Shown here piece by piece: positions 2,220 through 29,891 of a DNA stretch of 64,000 nt (positions are counted from its first letter, which is position 1; every line of letters begins with the position of its first letter). The notes below the pieces were generated by a model. The model saw only the letters and a program-made list of their open reading frames with translations, was not told the origin of the DNA and searched no databases. The position numbers and the translations under genes are program-made. The DNA is from Leptolyngbya sp. NIES-2104 (GTDB lineage Bacteria > Cyanobacteriota > Cyanobacteriia > Leptolyngbyales > Leptolyngbyaceae): the NCBI RefSeq assembly GCF_001485215.1, contig NZ_BBWW01000001.1, positions 5,146,001-5,210,000 on the forward strand, in the 5' to 3' direction.

Positions 2220-3629
2220 ATGAATTCGGTTTGGCAACAGGTGACCTTAACGACACTCCCGCTACGAGAATGGCGATCGGTGAGTTATGTCTATCAATGG
2301 GTCGTAGGATCGCTCTCTAGCTGGCGACAACAAAGCTGGATCATGCGACACGGAGATGCGATCGCGGCTCTTTTGATTAGTCTCGTCTTCGCGCTTTCTC
2401 CCTTTGTTGCCACGGATTTGATCGGCTGGATACTGGCGACCTGCATTCTGTTTTGGTTGCTGTTGACCGTTTCCGATACTGATCCACGGGCTGGATTTAC
2501 CCCGATTCATTTGCTCGTGATGCTGTTCTGGGGAATTGCCTCGATCGCGGCTGGACTTTCCCCGCTTAAACGGCTTGCCTTTGTGGGACTCGGAAAGCTT
2601 TCGCTGTATTTGATGTTTTTCATTCTGATGGCGCGAGTTCTGCGATCGGCAAAACTGCGATCGTTCTGTATCACTGCTTTTCTTCTGACTGCTTTAGCGG
2701 TCAGCACGTACGGAATTCAGCAAGCGATTTTTGGGGCGGATGCGTTAGCGACTTGGGTTGATCCAGAATCGCCCACGGCACAATCGACGCGGGTGTATAG
2801 CTATTTGGGGAATCCAAATCTTTTGGCGGGTTATCTGATGCCTGCGGTGTGGCTATCATTTGGGGCGATTTTTGTCTGGAAGCGATGGATGCCGAAACTT
2901 TTAGCGATCGTCATGTTCGGTATGAATACGGCTTGTTTGCTTCTGACTCAGAGCCGAGGCGCTTGGATTGGATTTGTGATTGCGGGCTTGGTGCTGGTGG
3001 TTCTGCTGCGGTATTGGTGGAGTGCTTACCTACCGAAATTTTTACGAGTCTGGGCATTGCCCCTGATGTTTGGAGGATTAGCAGGCGTTTTTGTGCTGGG
3101 CTTTCTTTTTGTTACGCCGTTTCGCTATCGAGTTGGCAGTATTTTTGCCGGAAGTGGGGACAGTAGTAATGCGTTTCGGTTGAATGTTTGGCGATCGGTA
3201 TTAGATATGATTCGCGATCGACCGATTTTCGGATTTGGTCCGGGTGATCTGGTGTTCAAAAGGATGTATCCGCTTTATTCGGCTGCGCGATTTAGTGCGC
3301 TGAGTGCTTATTCGATTTTGCTAGAAATTACGGTCGAAGCTGGGTTAGTCGGATTGACGGCATTTCTATGGTTATTGCTGGTTGCGTTTAATCAAGGATT
3401 TGTACAATTGCGGCGATTGAGAGCGATGGGTGATCCGGATGGATTCTGGCTGATTGGGGCAATTACGGCGATGGCGGGAATGATGGGGCATGGAATTGTT
3501 GATACGGTTTGGTATCGCCCAGAGGTTAGCGTTTTGTGGTGGTTGAGTGTGGCGTTGGTTGCGAGTTTCTACGTGCCAAGTGGGGAAGGAAAAACGGTTC
3601 AGACTCCGGAATTGGCAGCGGATTCTTGA
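2220..3629 (+). CDS. ictB: IctB family putative bicarbonate transporter / O-antigen-ligase-like membrane protein
   Basis: A 469-residue polytopic membrane protein that matches cyanobacterial IctB along its length: SYLGNPNLLAGYL near residue 195, LTQSRGAWIGF near 245, DSSNAFRLNVW and the GFGPGDLVFKRMYPLY loop near 340, ending in a GHGIVDTVWYRPE stretch. IctB was named for a role in inorganic carbon accumulation, but the family belongs to the Wzy_C/O-antigen-ligase group, so its true substrate is unsettled. About ten hydrophobic segments are visible. ATG at 2220 gives the family-typical start (MNSVWQQVTLTTL). It is convergent with holA, and a structured repeat fills the gap between them. Confidence 0.9.
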   Translation: MNSVWQQVTLTTLPLREWRSVSYVYQWVVGSLSSWRQQSWIMRHGDAIAALLISLVFALSPFVATDLIGWILATCILFWLLLTVSDTDPRAGFTPIHLLVMLFWGIASIAAGLSPLKRLAFVGLGKLSLYLMFFILMARVLRSAKLRSFCITAFLLTALAVSTYGIQQAIFGADALATWVDPESPTAQSTRVYSYLGNPNLLAGYLMPAVWLSFGAIFVWKRWMPKLLAIVMFGMNTACLLLTQSRGAWIGFVIAGLVLVVLLRYWWSAYLPKFLRVWALPLMFGGLAGVFVLGFLFVTPFRYRVGSIFAGSGDSSNAFRLNVWRSVLDMIRDRPIFGFGPGDLVFKRMYPLYSAARFSALSAYSILLEITVEAGLVGLTAFLWLLLVAFNQGFVQLRRLRAMGDPDGFWLIGAITAMAGMMGHGIVDTVWYRPEVSVLWWLSVALVASFYVPSGEGKTVQTPELAADS

Positions 3630-3639
3630 CAAATCTGAT

Positions 3640-3856
3640 TTAACCTCGGTTCGATCGGTCTTTCCGCTTCGATTCGACCTCGCCCCGGAATGAAATTCGG
3701 GGCTGACAGTGCGAAGTCCCTTCAGGACTGCAAGCCTCCAATTCATGCGCCTTTAGCCCCCTTTAGTGGGCTTTGCACGATTAGCCCCGAATTCTATTCC
3801 GGGGCGAGTGAACAACGGAGCGAAGGAATTCATCGAACTGACGTTGATTTAACGAC
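3640..3856. repeat. Structured palindromic repeat, copy A
   Basis: Core 3681-3806: an outer inverted repeat (CGCCCCGGAATGAAATTCGG at the left, AGCCCCGAATTCTATTCCGG at the right) encloses two smaller hairpins, AGTCC..GGACT near 3714-3730 and AGCCC..GGGCT near 3754-3772. The flanks extend the inverted symmetry imperfectly to about 50 bp per side (left GGTTCGATCGG and TCCGCTTCG; right CGGAGCGAAGGAATTCATCG). It sits between convergent ictB and holA, and its right end contains the holA stop codon. The same element recurs at 6.2, 40.9 and 63.2 kb. No coding capacity of its own; it may also act as a bidirectional terminator. Confidence 0.85.
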
Positions 3857-4835
3857 GCTGGAAAATTTGACACAGTTCGATCGCTTTTGTTTGCAGCGCG
3901 ATCGTTTCATCACTCCCCCGCTTCAGGCTGTATTCCAAATCCAGCAACAGCGGCAGAACTCGTTGCAGTTGTGCGACTGATGTGGAGGCAAGCTCTTGTT
4001 TGAGAAAATAAAGCTGTTTGGGGTTGTTCAATTCCGCAGCTTTGGCGATTTCTCGATCGTCTCGTTCTCCTGCTTCCTGCATTAACTTAATCCACAATCG
4101 CAATCGAAACTGTCCCACCAACGTACTGACAATTCGCAGTGCAGGTTCATTCTGTCGCAAGAGATCAGCAACTAATTCCAGAGCTTCAGCCGTTTTTCCT
4201 TGACGAATTGCGGCAAGTAATTTTAGTGAACTTTGAGTGCTGGCGGTCACGAGCGGTGCGATCGCAGTTTCATCGAGCGGCTTTTTTCGATCGCCTGCAA
4301 ACACTTTGAGCTTTTCGAGTTCAGACTGAAGCTGGCGAGTATCATTGCCGACCGCTTCGGTCACATAATCGATCGCGCTTTGTGTCAGCTTCAAATCCAA
4401 TTCCTGCGCGACTCGCTGCACTTGTTTCGCGATCAGTTCCGTTTTCCAGGGCGGAATTAACGAAAATTCCTGAATCGTTGCGTGAGTCTGTAAGAGTTTT
4501 GTTGATTTTAAGCGTCCATCTGGTTTAGTTGAACTCGTTAGTAAAAGCGTTGTCGTTTCGGGCAATGCGGAAATCGTGCGATCGAGTTCTGTCAGCACTT
4601 CCTCTGGGCAACGTTGCGCTAAAGTCGTCTCTGCCAGCCAAACAAATCGATTCCCCGACCCAAATGGGGGAGTCATGGCTTGATTTAAGGCTTGTACGAT
4701 CGCATCACCTTGATCTGATGAAAATTTATCAAAATTAAAACTCTCCCACATCGGGTCAACTGTCTTTTGCTTCAAGGCTTTCACCGCTTGAGCGATCGCG
4801 AAACTATCTTCACCCCAATAAAAGTAAATCCCCAT
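3849..4835 (-). CDS. holA: DNA polymerase III subunit delta
   Basis: About 328 residues, the usual length for HolA, starting MGIYFYWGEDSF, which is the typical N-terminus of the family. It has an AAA+-like clamp-loader fold: an N-terminal nucleotide-binding-like region without a functional P-loop, a middle lid region (VTEAVGNDTRQLQSELEKL) and a C-terminal collar helix bundle (LLAAIRQGKTAEAL...LVGQFRLRLW). Delta opens the beta sliding clamp within the clamp-loader complex. I chose the ATG at 4835 because GGAG lies 6 nt upstream; another in-frame ATG at 4871 would add 12 non-conserved residues. The stop codon lies in the outer arm of repeat copy A. Confidence 0.92.
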   Translation of the reverse strand: MGIYFYWGEDSFAIAQAVKALKQKTVDPMWESFNFDKFSSDQGDAIVQALNQAMTPPFGSGNRFVWLAETTLAQRCPEEVLTELDRTISALPETTTLLLTSSTKPDGRLKSTKLLQTHATIQEFSLIPPWKTELIAKQVQRVAQELDLKLTQSAIDYVTEAVGNDTRQLQSELEKLKVFAGDRKKPLDETAIAPLVTASTQSSLKLLAAIRQGKTAEALELVADLLRQNEPALRIVSTLVGQFRLRLWIKLMQEAGERDDREIAKAAELNNPKQLYFLKQELASTSVAQLQRVLPLLLDLEYSLKRGSDETIALQTKAIELCQIFQRR

Positions 4836-21827: not shown

Positions 21828-21896
21828 ATCCGCTGCCTCTAGTCACTCGTAATTCAAACACGGTGACGGATCGATTTGACTTGGAGGCGTAATTGT

Positions 21897-23198
21897 ATGA
21901 CCTTGCGTTTAGTCGAGCGGCTCAATGCTGTGAGACATCAGTACTTTGTGGGGCGTGAATCTGAGTGTCAACTGTTTCGAGATGCGATCGCGTCCCCGAT
22001 TCTTCCATTTTCGGTACTGTATCTATCAGGCATGGGCGGAATCGGCAAAACAATGTTAATTCGGCAATTTGCTCAGATTTGCCGCAGTCTGAACATTTCT
22101 ACAACTTACTTAGATGGGCGCAACTTTGAGTCATCCCCCCAAACTTTTCTGAATGCAGTGGGCGGGATTGGCTCTGCACGTCATGTCTTATTCATTGATA
22201 GTTATGAGCGACTTACTTCACTCGAAACTTGGCTGCGGGAAGAATTTTTGTCGCAGTTACCTGATCAAACTTTGATCGTGTTAGCCAGTCGAACTGCTCC
22301 GAGTTCTGCTTGGCGAACTGATCCAGGCTGGAACGCGTTATTTTATGCGATCGCGCTTCAGCATCTCAGTCCCGAAGACCGTCAGCTTTATCTTAAAAAA
22401 CGATCAATTCCACCGTTACCAGAGATTGTTAATTTTACTCAGGGGCATCCTTTAGCGCTGTCATTGACAGCAGATTTATACATTCAAGATGAAGGATTAG
22501 TTTCAGATGCAAGTTTTAGTGTCACGCAGATATTGTTAGAGACATTTTTAGAAGAAGTTCCGAGTTCGGCTCATCGACTTGCTTTAGGAGCTTGTGCGAT
22601 CGCGAATTCAACAACAGAAACCCTTTTGTCCGAACTACTCCAGCAATCCGATGTACATGAACTGTTTGAATGGTTGAGAGGACTTTCTTTTATACAATCT
22701 GAACGATTCGGATTAGTCCTCGATTCGGTAGCACGAGAAGCGATTATCTCCGATCTACGTTGGCGAAGCTATGATGTATGGAACCGTTTTCATCAACGAG
22801 TTCAGACCTATTGTACCGTTTCAGAACCCTCATTCACATTGAACCAATCAGAGTTTAATCAAGCGGTTTGGGATGCGTTTCGTCACTTTGTTCGTCCTGA
22901 TGTGCTGCATCATAATCCCCTGTTACGATCGCGCTTAGTCATTGAGAAATCAACTCCAGACACTCGCATTGAAGTGTTGCGATCGCGCTTAAAAGAAGCC
23001 GCAGAACTTTTGCAAATGTCTCCCCGTGACGAGAAGCTTTATCGAACCTTGCATCGAACTTATCTCAATCCAGCACCGACCCAAGAACAAGCAGCGGAAT
23101 GTTTAGATTTACCGTTTAGTACTTACCGCCGCTATCTGAAAGCAGGAATTTCTCGTGTTGCAGAGATCCTCTGGCAACGAGAGAGACTTGCAAGTTAG
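21897..23198 (+). CDS. STAND-type AAA+/NB-ARC-like ATPase with C-terminal HTH
   Basis: 433 residues from ATG 21897; GGAGG is about 12 nt upstream. P-loop GMGGIGKT at residues 45-52 and Walker B-like VLFIDSYERL near 102, then a winged or helical arm region. The C-terminal 50 residues (PTQEQAAECLDLPFSTYRRYL) form an HTH resembling sigma region 4. STAND proteins are switch ATPases used as regulators or in defence; the HTH favours transcription control. It is convergent with the WD40/GTPase/exporter operon, and whether it regulates that operon is inference. Confidence 0.7.
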   Translation: MTLRLVERLNAVRHQYFVGRESECQLFRDAIASPILPFSVLYLSGMGGIGKTMLIRQFAQICRSLNISTTYLDGRNFESSPQTFLNAVGGIGSARHVLFIDSYERLTSLETWLREEFLSQLPDQTLIVLASRTAPSSAWRTDPGWNALFYAIALQHLSPEDRQLYLKKRSIPPLPEIVNFTQGHPLALSLTADLYIQDEGLVSDASFSVTQILLETFLEEVPSSAHRLALGACAIANSTTETLLSELLQQSDVHELFEWLRGLSFIQSERFGLVLDSVAREAIISDLRWRSYDVWNRFHQRVQTYCTVSEPSFTLNQSEFNQAVWDAFRHFVRPDVLHHNPLLRSRLVIEKSTPDTRIEVLRSRLKEAAELLQMSPRDEKLYRTLHRTYLNPAPTQEQAAECLDLPFSTYRRYLKAGISRVAEILWQRERLAS

Positions 23199-23208
23199 AG
23201 AAACTCAC

Positions 23209-23252
23209 GTTTGGAAGCACTAACGATATTTGCGCTGTTAGTGCTTCCAAAC
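23209..23252. terminator. Long bidirectional terminator hairpin overlapping the WD40 stop codon
   Basis: A perfect 16-bp stem (GTTTGGAAGCACTAAC / GTTAGTGCTTCCAAAC) with a 12-nt loop lies between the convergent STAND and WD40 genes. The TAA stop codon of the WD40 gene (23238-23240) is in the right arm, so the last codons of that gene form part of the stem. Confidence 0.85.
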
Positions 23253-24890
23253 ACGAATCGTTTGATCTTTACTTCCGCTCACAACGCGATCGCGATCGAT
23301 TGCAACCGATAACACCCAATCTTTGTGATCGTTCAATGTCTGAAGCAATTTGCGCTCCTGAATCGACCACATCCTTACGGTGTTATCAATGCTACCACTA
23401 ACCAATCTTTGACCATCGGGGCTGACTGCGATCGAAACAACTCGTGCTGTATGTCCTTCAAAGGTATGAACTAATTCACCCGTTTGCCAATTCCATTGTT
23501 TAACTGTTTGATCCCAGCTTGCACTCATCAAAGATTGTCCGTCAGGACTAAAAGCTAGAGCACGAACTGCATCGTTATGTCCTGTGAGCGTTCTGATCGC
23601 TTCTCCGGTTTGAGCATTCCAAAGTTTGATCGTGCGATCGAGTCCAGCGGTCGCGATCGTTTTTCCATCAGGACTGATTACGACTGAGAAAATTCGATTT
23701 TCATGAGCGCGAATGGATTGTAAAACGGTTTGGGATGACAGTGACCATATCTTCAGTGTTCCATCTTCTCCCACACTGAAGAGCCGATCTCCGTAGGTCG
23801 CGATCGACCAAACTGGGCTACCGTGATCAAGCGTTTGAATTAGTTGATTCGTTTGTAAGTTCCAAAGTTTGATTGTGCGATCGCCACTTCCGCTAATCAG
23901 TGTTCGATCAGCAGTGAGAGCAAGCGATCGAACAACGTCTGTATGACCAGAAAGCGTATTCAGAATGGTTCCGGTTTCGATGTTCCAAACTTTAATCGTG
24001 CGGTCTTCACTGCCACTAATCACCGTTTGTCCGTCTAGCAGAACTGACCAAGCAGGAGAAGAATTGAGCGTTCTTGCTAAAGTGAGAGAATTCGATCGAA
24101 CTGTGGATTGATTCGCAGGCTGTACAGGCGACTTAGACAAGTTTTGAAATAACAAAAATCCGACCGCGATCGTGCTAATCAAAGCAATCAAGCTAACTAA
24201 GATTTCAAGTTTGATCGGAGTCGATCTCGTTTGAGGGGCGAGTGTTTTCGCTCTTGATAATAGAATTTGCTCATAGTTTGCTGGCTGTAACGGGCTAACC
24301 TCAGCTTTTCGACCCCCTGAAGTACTCGCTAACACTTTTAGCGAAAGTTCTTCGAGATAAGAATCGAGCGCAGTTGTGAACGTTCCTGATACAAAGAGCT
24401 TGAATAATTTTTCTTGCTGTAGCGATCGACAAGTTTGATCGCGAAGGTCTTGAGGAATTGCAACTCCCATTCGAGCAGGTTGATACGTTTCATGATCTGG
24501 AATGATCACACTTTCTAATTGATCAGGAAGCGTCTGTCGATCGACAACGGTTGCCGCCCCTTTTTCTAAACAAGTAAAAACTACATCCAAGTACTCTGGC
24601 TGTAGTTCTCCCGCATAGTAGTAACAGATGAAATATGGCACATGGTTCCGCCCTAAATCATCGGCTCCATCATTGTAGAGCCAACCAAACAACGTCTGAT
24701 CCGCAGCAATTCGAGATAAGTAAACGGCGCGATAGTTCGCTTCAGGTGGATTGTAAGCATCCCAATGTTGGTAAACAATTTGATCAATGAACGCCTGAAG
24801 AATTTCAGGCGGAATTGCAGCACTACTGAGCGCTTGAAATCCAACTTTAGGAAAGCTTGTATAGATCAGTTGACCTAAAAGAAGAAACAT
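23238..24890 (-). CDS. Membrane-anchored WD40 propeller protein with N-terminal GTPase-partner-like domain
   Basis: 550 residues in three parts. Residues 1-190 are a domain (LIYTSFPKVGFQAL, FGWLYNDGADDLGRNHVPYF) shared by a group of cyanobacterial WD40 proteins; I suspect kinship with N-terminal domains of GTPase-associated (GAP1-type) proteins, at moderate confidence. One transmembrane helix lies at about 229-249. Residues 270-550 hold seven WD40 repeats (each ending in W-N/S/K), enough for one beta-propeller outside or inside depending on topology. Its ATG overlaps the GTPase stop codon by one base (TAATG), implying tight co-translation with the GTPase. It is the last gene of the precursor/exporter operon. 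Function unknown. Confidence 0.8.
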   Translation of the reverse strand: MFLLLGQLIYTSFPKVGFQALSSAAIPPEILQAFIDQIVYQHWDAYNPPEANYRAVYLSRIAADQTLFGWLYNDGADDLGRNHVPYFICYYYAGELQPEYLDVVFTCLEKGAATVVDRQTLPDQLESVIIPDHETYQPARMGVAIPQDLRDQTCRSLQQEKLFKLFVSGTFTTALDSYLEELSLKVLASTSGGRKAEVSPLQPANYEQILLSRAKTLAPQTRSTPIKLEILVSLIALISTIAVGFLLFQNLSKSPVQPANQSTVRSNSLTLARTLNSSPAWSVLLDGQTVISGSEDRTIKVWNIETGTILNTLSGHTDVVRSLALTADRTLISGSGDRTIKLWNLQTNQLIQTLDHGSPVWSIATYGDRLFSVGEDGTLKIWSLSSQTVLQSIRAHENRIFSVVISPDGKTIATAGLDRTIKLWNAQTGEAIRTLTGHNDAVRALAFSPDGQSLMSASWDQTVKQWNWQTGELVHTFEGHTARVVSIAVSPDGQRLVSGSIDNTVRMWSIQERKLLQTLNDHKDWVLSVAIDRDRVVSGSKDQTIRVWKH

Positions 24891-25822
24891 TAGAGATGGA
24901 TTTTTTGTTCGTTAACGGGCACTTGATCTGGAGCGATCGTAAACAATCCGAGCGTAAATAACAACGCGATCGCGATCCCTAAAATACTGAGACTCGCGAT
25001 CGCTAGTAGCGCTACTGACCTACGAAGAGTCGATGGAAACATTTGCTGTGACAGTGCAGATTGCGCTAAACCTGTTGCCAGATTGTGATTTGGCTGAAAG
25101 TGATGGTGCTTGTTCAACTGTGCAAGTAACCAAAGTAACGGATCGGCGGCTCCTCGTGCATTGAGAGCAGCAGTTCCCTGCATCGAAACGATCGGAATTG
25201 CGGAATAGAATCGCTGATAGTTTGCTTTGAGGGCATCGAGTCGAGTGATTAACGGCTGTAGATTTTGCTCGATTTGCAGTTGGGTCACCGTTCCGGATTC
25301 GAGTAAATCACACTTGGTTAAAACTAACGCAAACGCATAATTCAATCGCTGTTGATGCACGATCGACGCGATCGCAACGACTTGATCAAATAAATCCACT
25401 AAAGTTTGGGCGTATTCTCGATCGTGCAGGAGTGCAGGAGCGCTGATAAACACACAGCACCCATGAGATTTCAAGACAAGCTCCTGAAAATCAGGATTCC
25501 GAATGTGACACGCTTCGCCCGGAATATCCCACCAGCGAAACTTACATTGTGTTTTGACTCCGAAGACTTTTTGACGCTTTAGAGCAAAGTTAAAGTTCGT
25601 AATCTTAATTGTCGCAGGTGGATAAAGCCCTGTGTTTTGAACATGCAGCAGAATTTTCTCGATGTTCGATCGCACTTCTTGATCTTGAGATTCAAACCAA
25701 GACGCTTTCGGATGCTCAGTTGAATGTTCTCCTTGTAATTCTGTGTAGCTTCCAGCGAGAAAAACTGTTTTACCGACACCCCGTTCACCGATGCTCAGAA
25801 GGTTGAAAGTTTTAGCAGCCAT
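24890..25822 (-). CDS. TRAFAC-like GTPase with C-terminal membrane anchor
   Basis: 310 residues. P-loop GERGVGKT at 12-19, switch-II-type DIPG at 99-102 (in place of DxPG/DxxG) and TKCD at 169-172 as the guanine-specificity motif (NKxD type). A single hydrophobic helix at about 269-294 should anchor it in the membrane with the G domain in the cytoplasm. It starts 5 bp after the stop of the second precursor peptide gene and overlaps the WD40 gene by one base. I infer a GTPase/regulator pair with the WD40 protein. Its place inside a peptide-export operon is unusual. Confidence 0.8.
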   Translation of the reverse strand: MAAKTFNLLSIGERGVGKTVFLAGSYTELQGEHSTEHPKASWFESQDQEVRSNIEKILLHVQNTGLYPPATIKITNFNFALKRQKVFGVKTQCKFRWWDIPGEACHIRNPDFQELVLKSHGCCVFISAPALLHDREYAQTLVDLFDQVVAIASIVHQQRLNYAFALVLTKCDLLESGTVTQLQIEQNLQPLITRLDALKANYQRFYSAIPIVSMQGTAALNARGAADPLLWLLAQLNKHHHFQPNHNLATGLAQSALSQQMFPSTLRRSVALLAIASLSILGIAIALLFTLGLFTIAPDQVPVNEQKIHL

Positions 25823-25827
25823 AGTGG

Positions 25828-26088
25828 TTAAAAGAAGCGACGAAAGAGACTGAACAAGCGAGATAAACTACTAAAATCGCCAAAAAATGCGAATGTTGTT
25901 TGTCGAAATCGGTATCCGGTGCGCGATAACGATGAGAACTGGTTTCCTGCTCCCGTTTCGAGATTCGTTTGGTTTTCTCCAAAAGTCTCGATCGCAGTGT
26001 CTTGAAAAAAGAATCCCGGTTGTCGTCTAAATCCACCCGTTACCATTTCTTCTTGCTCTGTAGAAAGTTCATCTATTGGCTCAGACAT
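25828..26088 (-). CDS. Double-glycine leader precursor peptide, Phe/Arg-rich core (second precursor)
   Basis: 86 residues. The leader (residues 1-19) ends ELSTEQEEMVTGG, a double-glycine processing signal like that of the first precursor in this operon (shared LS.EQ.E.V.GG). The 67-residue core has 15 Phe and no Cys, includes FSSLSR twice (residues 51-56 and 72-77), and ends LFSLFRRFF. It lies 11 bp after the exporter gene and 5 bp before the GTPase gene. A C39 peptidase would cleave after GG during export. It could be a bacteriocin-like or signalling peptide, or a membrane-active product; no family matches the core. SD AGGAAT lies about 10 nt before ATG. Confidence 0.7.
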   Translation of the reverse strand: MSEPIDELSTEQEEMVTGGFRRQPGFFFQDTAIETFGENQTNLETGAGNQFSSLSRTGYRFRQTTFAFFGDFSSLSRLFSLFRRFF

Positions 26089-26099
26089 TGTTTTGATTC

Positions 26100-28259
26100 C
26101 TAATACGATAAAAACTTCAAATGCTCACCGGATTGCGATCGCAGTTCGGTTGGAGAACCCTGAATTTTGACTTCACCTCGATCGAGCAATACAACCCAAT
26201 CGGCTCGATCAATCACACTCGGACGATGAGTAATCATGATGGTGGTTTTGCCGCATCTTGATTTGAGTAAGCGATCGAGCACTTGAGCTTCACTCACCGG
26301 ATCAAGCCCTGCGGTCGATTCATCTAAAATCAGCACTGGCGGATCAGTCACGATGCCACGAGCGATCGCGAGTCGTTGCCGTTGTCCTCCAGAAAGATTC
26401 GCCCCAAATTCACCCAAAACAGTTTGATATTGATTCGGCAAATGGCTAATAAAATCATCTGCTCCAGCAATTTGACAAGCTCTAACAATTTGCTCAAATG
26501 AAATATAAGGCGTTCCAAGCCGAAAGTTTTCGACAATCGATCGACTCCAGAAATGAGCGTCTTGAGGCACATACACGACTTGTTGCCGCAAACAATCGAG
26601 CGAAAGATCTTGTAAGTTGTAGTAACCGATCCGAATGTTGCCAGAATTCGGTGCGTAGAGTCCTGCAATCAGTTTTGCAAGGGTGCTTTTTCCGCAGCCT
26701 GAAGTGCCGATTAATGCGATCGCATTTCCTCCAGGCAAGCTCAGCGAAAAATTCTCCATCAAATCAACGCGACCTGCATGATGAAAATTTAATCGATGAC
26801 AAACAATATCCGCCTCGCTTGAAAGTTGAGCAAACGGTTTCTGAGTCTGACTTTGAACTTCTGGAGTCGCATCGATCACTTCTGAAACGCGACTGACTGC
26901 AGTTTGCGATCGATAGTACTCATCAATCAATCCGAGAATTGCACTCATGAATGCTAAAACGTTCCCCTGCATTCCATTAAACGCTAACAATTGACCGATA
27001 CTCAGTTCCTGATTAATCACCAGAGAGCTACCCAAGCCTAACAGTAAAACACTTCCAATCCGGCTCACCTGTTGAGTAAACGTGCTCGTCACAATCCCAA
27101 TCTGCGTCGTACTAAAACTCAGATTTGCTAACCGCCCGAATCGACTTTGCAACTCTTCCCAGAATTGCGGAGCCGCGTTCGTCGATTTCATCACTAAAGC
27201 ACCCTTAAACGTTTCAACTAACACCCCTTGATTCTCAGAAGATAGAACCAACAGATTTCGAGTTGCTTTTTGCAATGTCGGCAGAAAAGGAACAACCGAA
27301 ACTGTCATCAAGAATCCGATAACTATCACTGCGCTGGTCAACTTCCAGCTATAAAACAACATAAAACCCAGCGAAATTAGTGCAATAAAAAACTGACTCG
27401 GTAACGCTACCACTACTTGAGACAGCAATTGATTAATCTCATTGATATCGCGCAATCGGCTGATAATTTCACCACTGCGGCGAGTTTCGTAATAGCTCAG
27501 CGGCAGTCGAAGGATCTTTTGTCCGAACTCTAGTACAAAGCCTAACTGTAATCGTTGACTAAAATGAGCAATCAGAGTCGATTGTAAGAGTTGTAAACTG
27601 CCACTAAACAAGCTCAGAACAATCACACTCACCACAACTACTGTAAGAAGCTGCGAATCTTGTCTGACTAAAACATCATCAGTAAGAATTTGAATCAGGA
27701 ACGGACTTGCTAAAGAAAGCACCCCTAAGACAAGGTTGATTAGCAATGCACCGAGTAACATCGATCGATAAGGCAAGATTCGCCCAAAAAACCGACTAAA
27801 CCCGCTTTTTTCCTCAGATTGAGCCTGCACCACACGATCGCACTCAGGCTCCAGAAGCAGCATAATGCCATTCCAAGCCGCCATCAGTTCTTGTCGATCG
27901 ACATACCGCAACCCCAACGCCGGATCAGCAATCACAAATTTTCGCCCGCGCTTGCCGTAAAACACCACCCAGTGATATCCCTGCCAATGAATCACACCTG
28001 GTAACGGCAGTTCATTTAAGCGATCGAGAATTTGCTCGGACACTTTCACCGATCGCGTTTTAAATCCCAATGCTTCAAATCCGCGTCTGAGTCCTAACAA
28101 CGTCGTACCAAGCTGTCCGGTGCCCACCGCTTCTCGACATCGAGCAATGCTCAATCCGCGTCCGTAATGCTTACTAATCGATGCAAGGCAAGCGGCTCCA
28201 CAATCTTCTTCACTCAGTTGAGAGACACAAGCATATCCTTGTCTTAATGCAGAAACCAT
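26100..28259 (-). CDS. Peptidase-containing ABC transporter (C39 family, bacteriocin exporter)
   Basis: About 719 residues from ATG 28259; an upstream TTG at 28268 is possible. The N-terminal C39 peptidase shows Gln and catalytic Cys (QLSEEDCGAACLAS, Cys near 20), His in HWQGYHWVVFYG and Asp in IADPALGL. A six-helix ABC membrane domain follows (about 165-440). The nucleotide-binding domain has GTSGCGKST, signature LSGGQRQRLAIARG, and Walker B PVLILDEST, with ITHRPS as the H-loop. Such transporters remove double-glycine leaders and export the mature peptide. All catalytic residues are present. It starts six bases after the HlyD stop. Confidence 0.93.
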   Translation of the reverse strand: MVSALRQGYACVSQLSEEDCGAACLASISKHYGRGLSIARCREAVGTGQLGTTLLGLRRGFEALGFKTRSVKVSEQILDRLNELPLPGVIHWQGYHWVVFYGKRGRKFVIADPALGLRYVDRQELMAAWNGIMLLLEPECDRVVQAQSEEKSGFSRFFGRILPYRSMLLGALLINLVLGVLSLASPFLIQILTDDVLVRQDSQLLTVVVVSVIVLSLFSGSLQLLQSTLIAHFSQRLQLGFVLEFGQKILRLPLSYYETRRSGEIISRLRDINEINQLLSQVVVALPSQFFIALISLGFMLFYSWKLTSAVIVIGFLMTVSVVPFLPTLQKATRNLLVLSSENQGVLVETFKGALVMKSTNAAPQFWEELQSRFGRLANLSFSTTQIGIVTSTFTQQVSRIGSVLLLGLGSSLVINQELSIGQLLAFNGMQGNVLAFMSAILGLIDEYYRSQTAVSRVSEVIDATPEVQSQTQKPFAQLSSEADIVCHRLNFHHAGRVDLMENFSLSLPGGNAIALIGTSGCGKSTLAKLIAGLYAPNSGNIRIGYYNLQDLSLDCLRQQVVYVPQDAHFWSRSIVENFRLGTPYISFEQIVRACQIAGADDFISHLPNQYQTVLGEFGANLSGGQRQRLAIARGIVTDPPVLILDESTAGLDPVSEAQVLDRLLKSRCGKTTIMITHRPSVIDRADWVVLLDRGEVKIQGSPTELRSQSGEHLKFLSY

Positions 28260-28264
28260 AGTTT

Positions 28265-29548
28265 TCAAAGATTAGAAATGAGCCGCGTCTTTCTCATCAA
28301 AAATTGCACCACCGTTTCTTGGCGCGAAATCACATCGACACTTCCTTCCATGCCCGCCTGTAACGGACACTGCCGCCGTTCATTCCCGACAAACGATCGA
28401 GCAGGTTCCATTGTCACCTCATAAGTTGCAGGTGCATTCTCAGCCGCAGGTCGAGCATCGGGAGCTACCGTCTTGATCACACCGTTCAAAGTGCCATAAT
28501 CGGGAAATGGACAAGCTGAAACCCGCATTTGAATCGACTGCCCTAGTTTCACTTTGTCGATGTCCTGTGCCGCGATTTGAGCTTTCAGAACAAACGGAGC
28601 ATTTTCAGGTGCAATAAACGCGATCGCTTCTCCCGATCGCACGACCTGATCTGCATTTCTCAAATTCAATTGCAGCACTGTTCCTGCAATCGGCGCACGA
28701 ACCACACTTTGGTCAAAGCTGCGTTCAATCTGCTGGCTTTCTTTTGCAGTGCGATCGAGTTGTCGCTGTAGCTCAATTCGATTTTGCAGTAATTGTTCTC
28801 GCTGTTGGCGTAATGTTGCCAGCGTCGAAGCTCCTTTCGCCTGAATTTGAGCAATTTGCTCTTGTGCTCTCGCAATTTCCGCATCAGTTGGATTCAAAGC
28901 AGAACTTGCACGATCGACTTTTGCTTGAGCCACTTGAACCGCTGCTTCTTTCTCTTTCAAAGTCAACGTTGCAACGGCTCCCGATGCCGCTAACTGTCGA
29001 AACCGCCTGAATTCTTCCTGAGCTAGATTCAATGAGGCTCTCGCTTCTTGTACATTCGATTGTGCGGTCGTTTGCTGGTCTTGAAACAATCGCTGCTGAC
29101 TTCTCAATTGTGCTTCTGCGGCTTGAATACTGCGATCGGTAACATTCGATTCGGCTGCAAGTTGACTATCAAGCGACTGAATCTGAGCATTAATTTGATT
29201 CAGTTGCAATCTTCCTTGTCGTAAATCGCCTTCAAGCTGGCTTTTGGTCGTCATCAAGCGAGAATCATCCATCCGAGCCACAATATCCCCTGCTTTCACC
29301 TTTTGGTTCTCTTTCACAGCAATTTCTTTGATCGTGCCCTCGATCGCAGATTGCACCAGCCGCAATTCTCCCGCAGGTCGCACCGTTCCGGGAGCTTTCA
29401 CCGTCACGTTATATTTCAGCACCGTAGCCAACACAACTGCCGCTCCAAACACCATCAGCAACACGCCGCCCCCCGCGATCGCCCACGGACTAAGACGCGG
29501 TAGAAACTCGCTCTGACTCAGTGTTGGAACTTGAATCGGTTCTTCCAT
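28265..29548 (-). CDS. HlyD-family membrane fusion (adaptor) protein
   Basis: About 427 residues. I chose ATG 29548 (MEEPIQVPTLSQSEF) since AGGAG sits 7 nt upstream; the longer frame to 29611 would translate through the palindrome at 29574-29599. One helix (WAIAGGGVLLMVFGAAVVLATVL) near the N-terminus, then a lipoyl/barrel-sandwich half (VKAPGTVRPAGELRLVQ), a long coiled coil (about residues 95-265, including QAAEAQLRSQQRL and many Gln/Ala), the second barrel half (VVRAPIAGTVLQL) and a beta-barrel end. It bridges the ABC exporter to an outer-membrane channel such as TolC, which is not encoded here. Confidence 0.92.
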   Translation of the reverse strand: MEEPIQVPTLSQSEFLPRLSPWAIAGGGVLLMVFGAAVVLATVLKYNVTVKAPGTVRPAGELRLVQSAIEGTIKEIAVKENQKVKAGDIVARMDDSRLMTTKSQLEGDLRQGRLQLNQINAQIQSLDSQLAAESNVTDRSIQAAEAQLRSQQRLFQDQQTTAQSNVQEARASLNLAQEEFRRFRQLAASGAVATLTLKEKEAAVQVAQAKVDRASSALNPTDAEIARAQEQIAQIQAKGASTLATLRQQREQLLQNRIELQRQLDRTAKESQQIERSFDQSVVRAPIAGTVLQLNLRNADQVVRSGEAIAFIAPENAPFVLKAQIAAQDIDKVKLGQSIQMRVSACPFPDYGTLNGVIKTVAPDARPAAENAPATYEVTMEPARSFVGNERRQCPLQAGMEGSVDVISRQETVVQFLMRKTRLISNL

Positions 29549-29573
29549 GTCAAGCTCCTGAGTGGATTGAGGA

Positions 29574-29599
29574 AAGATCCCTGAAGCTTCAGGGATCTT
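29574..29599 (-). promoter_or_regulatory. Perfect palindrome between first precursor and exporter genes (candidate attenuator)
   Basis: A 26-bp perfect palindrome (arm AAGATCCCTGAAG, second arm its complement) lies between the precursor stop at 29622 and the HlyD ATG at 29548. Folded in mRNA it gives a hairpin of up to about 11 bp plus a small loop. On the minus strand it is followed by TCCTC, not a T-tract, so it could be a processing or mRNA-stability site rather than a full terminator. Confidence 0.6.
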
Positions 29600-29621
29600 C
29601 ATGACGAACAATCGATCGAAC

Positions 29622-29891
29622 CTAGTAGACCATCAAGCCCTTCGGATCGAAGTTCAGTTGAAAGTCTTTCAGAGCGCTCGTGTCGATCGCGCTTTTCTCA
29701 GCAGTCACGATTTGCGAAACCTCACTTCCACTCGGACCCGATTTTGCATCCGCTTTGAATCCAAGCGATTCATTGTTGAAGTTAAAAGTTGTGTTGATTA
29801 AATCCTTCAGACTGATGCCACCCGACACGGTTTCTTGTTGTTCATCCGACAAATCGACGAACAATTCAGACTGCACAGTAACACGGTTCAT
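29622..29891 (-). CDS. CTB-like double-glycine bacteriocin precursor peptide (first precursor)
   Basis: 89 residues. The leader (1-25) reads MNRVTVQSELFVDLSDEQQE-TVSGG; ELFVxLSxEQQExVxGG is typical of the cyanobacterial CTB-type bacteriocin-like family. The core of 64 residues (ISLKDLINTTFNFNNESLGF... to ...DPKGLMVY) has no Cys and no obvious modification sites. It is the first gene of the operon, upstream of the HlyD and C39-ABC exporter that would process it. SD GAGGAAC precedes the ATG. Biological activity (bacteriocin, signal, or other secreted peptide) is unknown. Confidence 0.75.
   Translation of the reverse strand: MNRVTVQSELFVDLSDEQQETVSGGISLKDLINTTFNFNNESLGFKADAKSGPSGSEVSQIVTAEKSAIDTSALKDFQLNFDPKGLMVY

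Follow-up and report, generated by a model that had tools for sequence, protein, structure and literature searches.

In a window of 64,000 nt from the genome (6.39 Mb) of the cyanobacterium Leptolyngbya sp. NIES-2104 (contig NZ_BBWW01000001.1, positions 5,146,001 to 5,210,000; the window is the whole stretch of DNA analyzed here), six minus-strand genes at 23238–29891 combine a peptide-export cassette with a pair of genes encoding a putative membrane GTPase and its candidate regulator, a protein with a WD40 propeller. The linkage of this pair to exporters is real but optional, and in this operon the pair probably reads the exported peptide or the state of the exporter. The explanation we favor is an optional two-protein GTPase switch on a cassette of the Group III type; for the whole chain, from sensing to feedback on export or expression, we estimate a probability of roughly 45%. 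The parts are known, while the pair and its arrangement appear to be new, with no description of them recognized in the open literature searched (subscription papers were outside its scope).

The ORF check has confirmed all six open reading frames (ORFs) of the preliminary description, in the order proposed there, and Pfam has recovered the HlyD_3, Peptidase_C39, ABC_membrane and ABC_tran domains and the seven WD40 stretches. The protein at 24890..25822 (310 aa) is a GTPase by motifs and predicted fold, and DO-GTPase2-like by a Pfam match below the family cut-off, with a C-terminal membrane helix predicted by the hydropathy scan at residues 270–288 (24959..25015). The regulator (23238..24890, 550 aa) combines a putative longin-like N-terminal domain (N domain), of which residues 1–169 are the confident part of the structure model (24384..24890), a predicted membrane helix at residues 230–248 (24147..24203), and the propeller (23241..24035, start approximate). 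The one-base overlap of the two genes is confirmed.

By their sequences, the first four genes are a known cyanobacterial cassette of the Group III bacteriocin type, with an HlyD gene, a short-type C39 exporter gene without CAP_ED, and precursor genes, by which such clusters were defined. PrecA (29622..29891) is an 89-aa double-glycine (GG) precursor of the CTB family with the leader end ETVSGG, scoring 64.9 bits against the cut-off of 32 of the CTB family bacteriocin model NF038167 (E 5.6e-18), with homologues in loci L032, L033, L039 and L040. PrecB (25828..26088, 86 aa, leader end EMVTGG) has relatives and a leader of the same kind but matches NF038167 with 23.2 bits, below the cut-off, so that of the two double-glycine precursors proposed initially only the first is a family member by score. 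The HlyD adaptor gene is placed at 28265..29548, and the exporter gene at 26100..28259, within an ORF starting from TTG at 28268. Short gaps, as described initially, are indeed observed between the exporter and PrecB genes (11 nt) and between the PrecB and GTPase genes (5 nt), but a short PrecA–HlyD gap requires the alternative TTG start at 29611; from the ATG at 29548, matched by the HlyD starts in L032 and L130, this gap is 73 nt. The ratio of nonsynonymous to synonymous substitution rates (dN/dS) is 0.045–0.167 in seven parts compared with L032, and 0.070–0.207 in four parts compared with L031, with some dS values near saturation; the low values relative to L032 indicate that all seven parts are maintained as coding genes.

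Relatives of the GTPase have been identified by a scan of genome collections starting from two short peptide patterns, and its count is a lower bound: at least 44 loci, 42 of them with cyanobacterial titles. The other two (L064 and L084) are titled Candidatus Gracilibacteria and adjoin Hydrococcus in the tree, and are probably mis-binned cyanobacterial DNA. Within the scans made, the accessory pair is seen only in cyanobacteria. In 34 out of 50 non-identical GTPase loci (window excluded), the same strand carries an N-domain gene at a distance of up to 500 nt, and in 11 out of 50 no N-domain match is found in the stretch examined, partly because contigs end. With the window added, the exporter adjoins the GTPase in ten out of 51 non-identical loci: the window, L032, L051, L052, L053, L054, L055, L056, L068 and L069. 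L051 was scored as linked on a truncated exporter and is absent from the exporter tree, where nine linked rows are present. Some of the 51 rows are near-copies (e.g., L064/L067, L036/L086 and L037/L089); L092, with a broken GTPase, repeats of the same locus, and five GTPase places of genomes G131 and G182 are outside this set. All ten linked loci are co-directional, with PrecB between the exporter and the pair (in Acaryochloris, a weaker relative, approximately 31 bits). The placement of the pair immediately behind PrecB is thus shared by cyanobacteria that are deeply diverged from one another. Other genera (L033, L039, L040) show the same gene order, with GTPases 60–65% and WD40 proteins 43–51% identical.

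In a sample of 386 genomes of the phylum, where the exporter search scored up to two candidates per genome and the GTPase profile search up to five, the N domain is found in 14 genomes, the GTPase in ten, and the exporter subfamily in 62. Four out of 14 GTPase places have such an exporter at a distance of up to 10 kb, whereas the expectation calculated from the sizes of the genomes and their numbers of exporters is 0.04, rising to 0.31 with six C39 exporters per genome. As the GTPase places are related by descent, Poisson probabilities are too small, but the excess is still large. Moreover, the linked GTPases do not form one clade: grouping them together is rejected by the approximately unbiased (AU) test (p = 3.5e-5), also for the eight linked GTPases remaining without Acaryochloris (p 0.02). 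The GTPase tree requires four changes of linkage, all forced by well-supported branches, and the exporter tree three, two of them forced. In Acaryochloris (L068 and L069) the pair occupies the same site, but its order is reversed, the regulator carries a roadblock instead of a WD40 module, and the GTPase has tetratricopeptide repeats (TPRs) behind the membrane helix (both Pfam tests made on L068). Repeated recruitment, or early linkage followed by losses and rearrangement, are both possible; neither history agrees easily with a passenger pair. Most pairs are found without such an exporter, which by the preliminary description would mean chance; the excess of linkage, the conserved site and the non-monophyly nevertheless argue that the co-location is not accidental, as had been suspected.

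The genome containing the window has one GTPase of this family and one N domain of the regulator type, and in the genus the GTPase is present in four out of eight genomes. The closest named relative of the window GTPase, from Pseudanabaenaceae cyanobacterium LEGE 13415, is 90% identical. The G.RG.GKT loop, the PGE motif and D172 are invariant in 48 relatives, and D99 and T169/C171 are retained in at least 90% of them. The model has a G-domain fold, with 303 matches in PDB at E<=0.001; the search of solved structures by sequence yielded no significant match for the GTPase or the N domain.

The C-terminal module of the regulator varies, being WD40, solute-binding, roadblock, or roadblock with V4R. 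Out of 44 regulators, 24 carry WD40 repeats, 14 form the roadblock set, two are of the solute-binding type, and four are outside these assignments. The roadblock family is matched by 13 out of 14 C-terminal pieces of the other regulators (E<=0.05, best 2.3e-8), V4R by three, and a joint profile of the roadblock pieces matches solved roadblock proteins, including CvnB5 (best E 2.9e-7). No Robl_LC7 domain is found in the window regulator, where residues 1–254 have no match and the remainder is WD40. Roadblock proteins, e.g., MglB, act on small GTPases (PMC4316618, PMC11016934), and this is the best independent reason for assuming that the regulator controls its GTPase. The pair may gate, localize or self-protect, as proposed initially, but its exchangeable sensor domains favor sensing or regulation as the role.

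The hydropathy scan predicts a membrane helix in 29 out of 44 regulators; these include 23 of the 24 WD40-type proteins, whereas all 14 proteins of the roadblock type are without one (the types being assigned by ourselves). In two regulators, L046:3631-5460 (E 1.1e-31) and L077:2513-4396 (E 8.8e-33), a PBP_like_2 solute-binding domain follows the N domain and the membrane helix. Solute-binding domains usually act outside the cytoplasmic membrane, which suggests an outside location also for the propeller at the same position.

The N domain has no Pfam match (residues 1–254 searched). It is modeled with high confidence up to approximately residue 169, and its strands and helices follow each other as in longin domains (b-b-a-b-b-b-a). 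In the Foldseek search, the highest probabilities were obtained for TagF (the top match), for one chain from the FLCN-FNIP2-Rag-Ragulator complex, and for chains from GATOR1 complexes. We consider the longin-like assignment of the modeled domain as a lead, not as a proof. Homology to GAP1-N2 (PF20013), suspected from motifs, is unsupported, and no match is observed for the window domain, 19 relatives (E<=10), the own genome, or the consensus; GAP1-M and GAP1-C are not among the best 25 of the 57 Pfam matches of the whole regulator, and residues 1–254 are without a match. Two actinobacterial plasmids searched contain no GAP1-N2 sequences, and the plasmid search for relatives gave no match for the N domain or the GTPase.

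For the favored switch, we infer the following topology, protein contact, ligand, GTP cycle and output. On the cytoplasmic side of the membrane, the GTPase domain would come together with the longin-like domain, and the latter, alone or with a roadblock domain, may control the GTPase. The WD40 propeller would be located outside the cytoplasmic membrane, contacting the exported peptide or the HlyD/exporter assembly, and its binding would shift the state of the GTPase and thus adjust export or expression of the peptide.

Several observations weigh against this explanation. The pair, initially described as built into the operon, is optional instead: for 41 out of 51 GTPase loci, the stretch examined lacks such an exporter (an upper bound, as short contigs ending before 10 kb are included), and the pair is present at only four out of 94 exporter places in the 386 genomes and absent from 90, in agreement with the earlier statement that it is not a usual part of such operons. 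The GTPase is a putative switch by motifs and fold, with GTP hydrolysis predicted. For the N domain there is no Foldseek match at E<=0.001, the named matches have TM-scores of 0.22–0.28, and profile comparison with TagF_N (PF09867, 11 sequences) is non-significant (probability 0.4% and 0.1%). Roadblock pieces are individually weak, the first member scoring 22.9 bits against the cut-off of 23. The charges flanking the membrane helix in the 29 regulators, with the N side more positive in 17, the opposite in nine, and equal in three, weakly support the outside propeller; the main argument for this topology, the solute-binding fusions, comes from outside this operon, with no GTPase found in the examined stretch of L046. 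Promoter and terminator scans yielded six and seven sites compared to 8.2 and 7.5 in shuffled sequences, showing no excess. Contact between the regulator and the GTPase, co-transcription, and peptide binding are predictions from the sequence data.

A wider interpretation, which we hold tentatively and at clearly less than even odds, is that of a cyanobacterial modular transmembrane receptor and G-protein switch, comprising a longin-like regulator with an interchangeable sensor (WD40, solute-binding, or roadblock/V4R) and an anchored Rag/Ras-like GTPase, possibly with TPRs outside, which peptide exporters would have acquired on more than one occasion, enabling the cell to sense its own exported peptide by means of a GTPase. 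If true, bacteria would have an equivalent of receptor-coupled G proteins or of Rag–longin sensing.

Among the alternatives, the GTPase may place or switch the exporter at the membrane in an MglA-like manner and without peptide sensing. The roadblock partners of related pairs, comparable to MglA/MglB (PMC4316618), agree with it, as does the lineage of L037 and L089, in which a GTPase relative adjoins a peptidase-less ABC exporter, but the exchange of WD40 for solute-binding modules is left unexplained and most pairs have no exporter nearby, so we regard it as unlikely.

Self-immunity, with the membrane pair shielding the producer from its own exported peptide, seems rather more doubtful. In its favor, the pair terminates a cassette of the bacteriocin type, and a membrane helix is predicted in each of the two proteins. 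On the other hand, most pairs are away from the exporter, and among 20 control loci with same-subfamily exporters, drawn from the 90 pair-less places, eight contain the same second precursor (PrecB match above 40 bits) without the GTPase; PrecB as a GTPase-specific partner is thereby excluded. Moreover, "bacteriocin" is a family label here, by which neither the function nor a toxicity of the peptides is established: in Synechococcus elongatus, biofilm development requires GG-motif proteins exported in this way (PMC4997328), and in Nostoc, the peptidase exporter HetC is required for heterocyst differentiation (PMC10986499). With peptide export serving biofilm development in one species and probably cell differentiation in another, control of the exporter and perception of the peptide are poorly known in cyanobacteria, and a conserved membrane GTPase tied to the exporter is a concrete candidate for either.

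A conflict (defense) module, i.e., a cyanobacterial relative of the DO-GTPase/GAP1 systems with the exporter as the effector arm, has a low probability in our opinion. DO-GTPase2 (PF19993) is matched by 13 out of 14 members of the GTPase family (E<=1, best 5.8e-10) and the PGE motif is conserved. Still, the window GTPase is below the family cut-off (22.7 versus 27 bits, E 8.6e-5), GAP1-N2 is unmatched, the only PADLOC match is a WD40 cross-match, and the defining paper describes its GTPase systems as nearly completely absent from cyanobacteria (PMC7159879). The least probable is a passenger pair that arrived by chance and stayed, which most pairs and exporters being apart would suit, but which is already hard to hold given the linkage excess even at six exporters per genome, the ten loci that agree in site and direction without being one clade, and the tight spacing in the window (a gap of 5 nt and an overlap of 1 nt).

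Several neighborhoods contain further genes. In the window, a STAND-like AAA_16 gene (21876-23198, plus strand) is convergent with the operon end; genes that look similar by eye also neighbor the WD40 gene in L032 and in L033, the latter gene being longer and co-directional. Upstream of PrecA in L130, from a relative of the window's genus, there is a lectin-like ORF (3221-4006, labeled by eye). The GTPase relatives in L037:9318-11939 and L089:8093-10774, one lineage, are 84 nt downstream of the ABC exporter without the C39 peptidase. In L034:6190-12479, a single GTPase is surrounded by two N-domain/WD40 proteins and a pentapeptide-repeat-like gene, with no exporter. In Hydrococcus rivularis (L088:13958-19388), a roadblock-type pair is followed, approximately 2–6 kb downstream, by a long-type C39 exporter and HlyD, the intervening gene being ammonium-transporter-like by eye, and in G383:C1:812604-846898 an unlinked GTPase has a subfamily exporter approximately 31 kb away.

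Compared to known systems, the cassette shares HlyD, the short-type C39 exporter and GG precursors with Group III bacteriocin clusters (Wang, Fewer, Sivonen 2011, PMC3140520), while the words "GTPase" and "WD40" are absent from the main text of that paper, the window pair being an addition. The DO-GTPase/GAP1 systems (Kaur et al., 2020, PMC7159879) resemble the pair in a TRAFAC-type GTPase related to DO-GTPase2 and a downstream regulator gene, often linked to the membrane and having outside domains; they differ in that the window GTPase is below the cut-off, GAP1-N2 is unmatched, and WD40 or roadblock modules are present instead, and since neither the GTPase score nor the GAP1-N2 search agrees with this class, we do not assign the pair to it. 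TagF of TagF/TssM from type VI secretion is the top Foldseek match of the N domain, with the non-significant profile comparison given above; tagF is annotated directly beside tssM in six out of ten plasmid stretches, the other four carrying no annotation.

Other systems may be compared in their way of working. MglA/MglB and the Streptomyces conservons (Cvn) combine a small GTPase with a roadblock partner, conservons being tied to a membrane sensor (PMC4316618), whereas the window regulator has the putative longin-like domain and WD40 without a roadblock, and no histidine kinase is encoded by the six genes. In the Rag GTPase machinery (FLCN-FNIP, GATOR1, Ragulator), the N domain resembles chains at the fold level, with weak structural scores and no sequence match, and roadblock domains are found in the related pairs. 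The architecture with exchangeable sensors, in which a bacterial G protein has longin-like and roadblock partners, would also bear on the origin of membrane-bound GTPase sensing outside eukaryotes.

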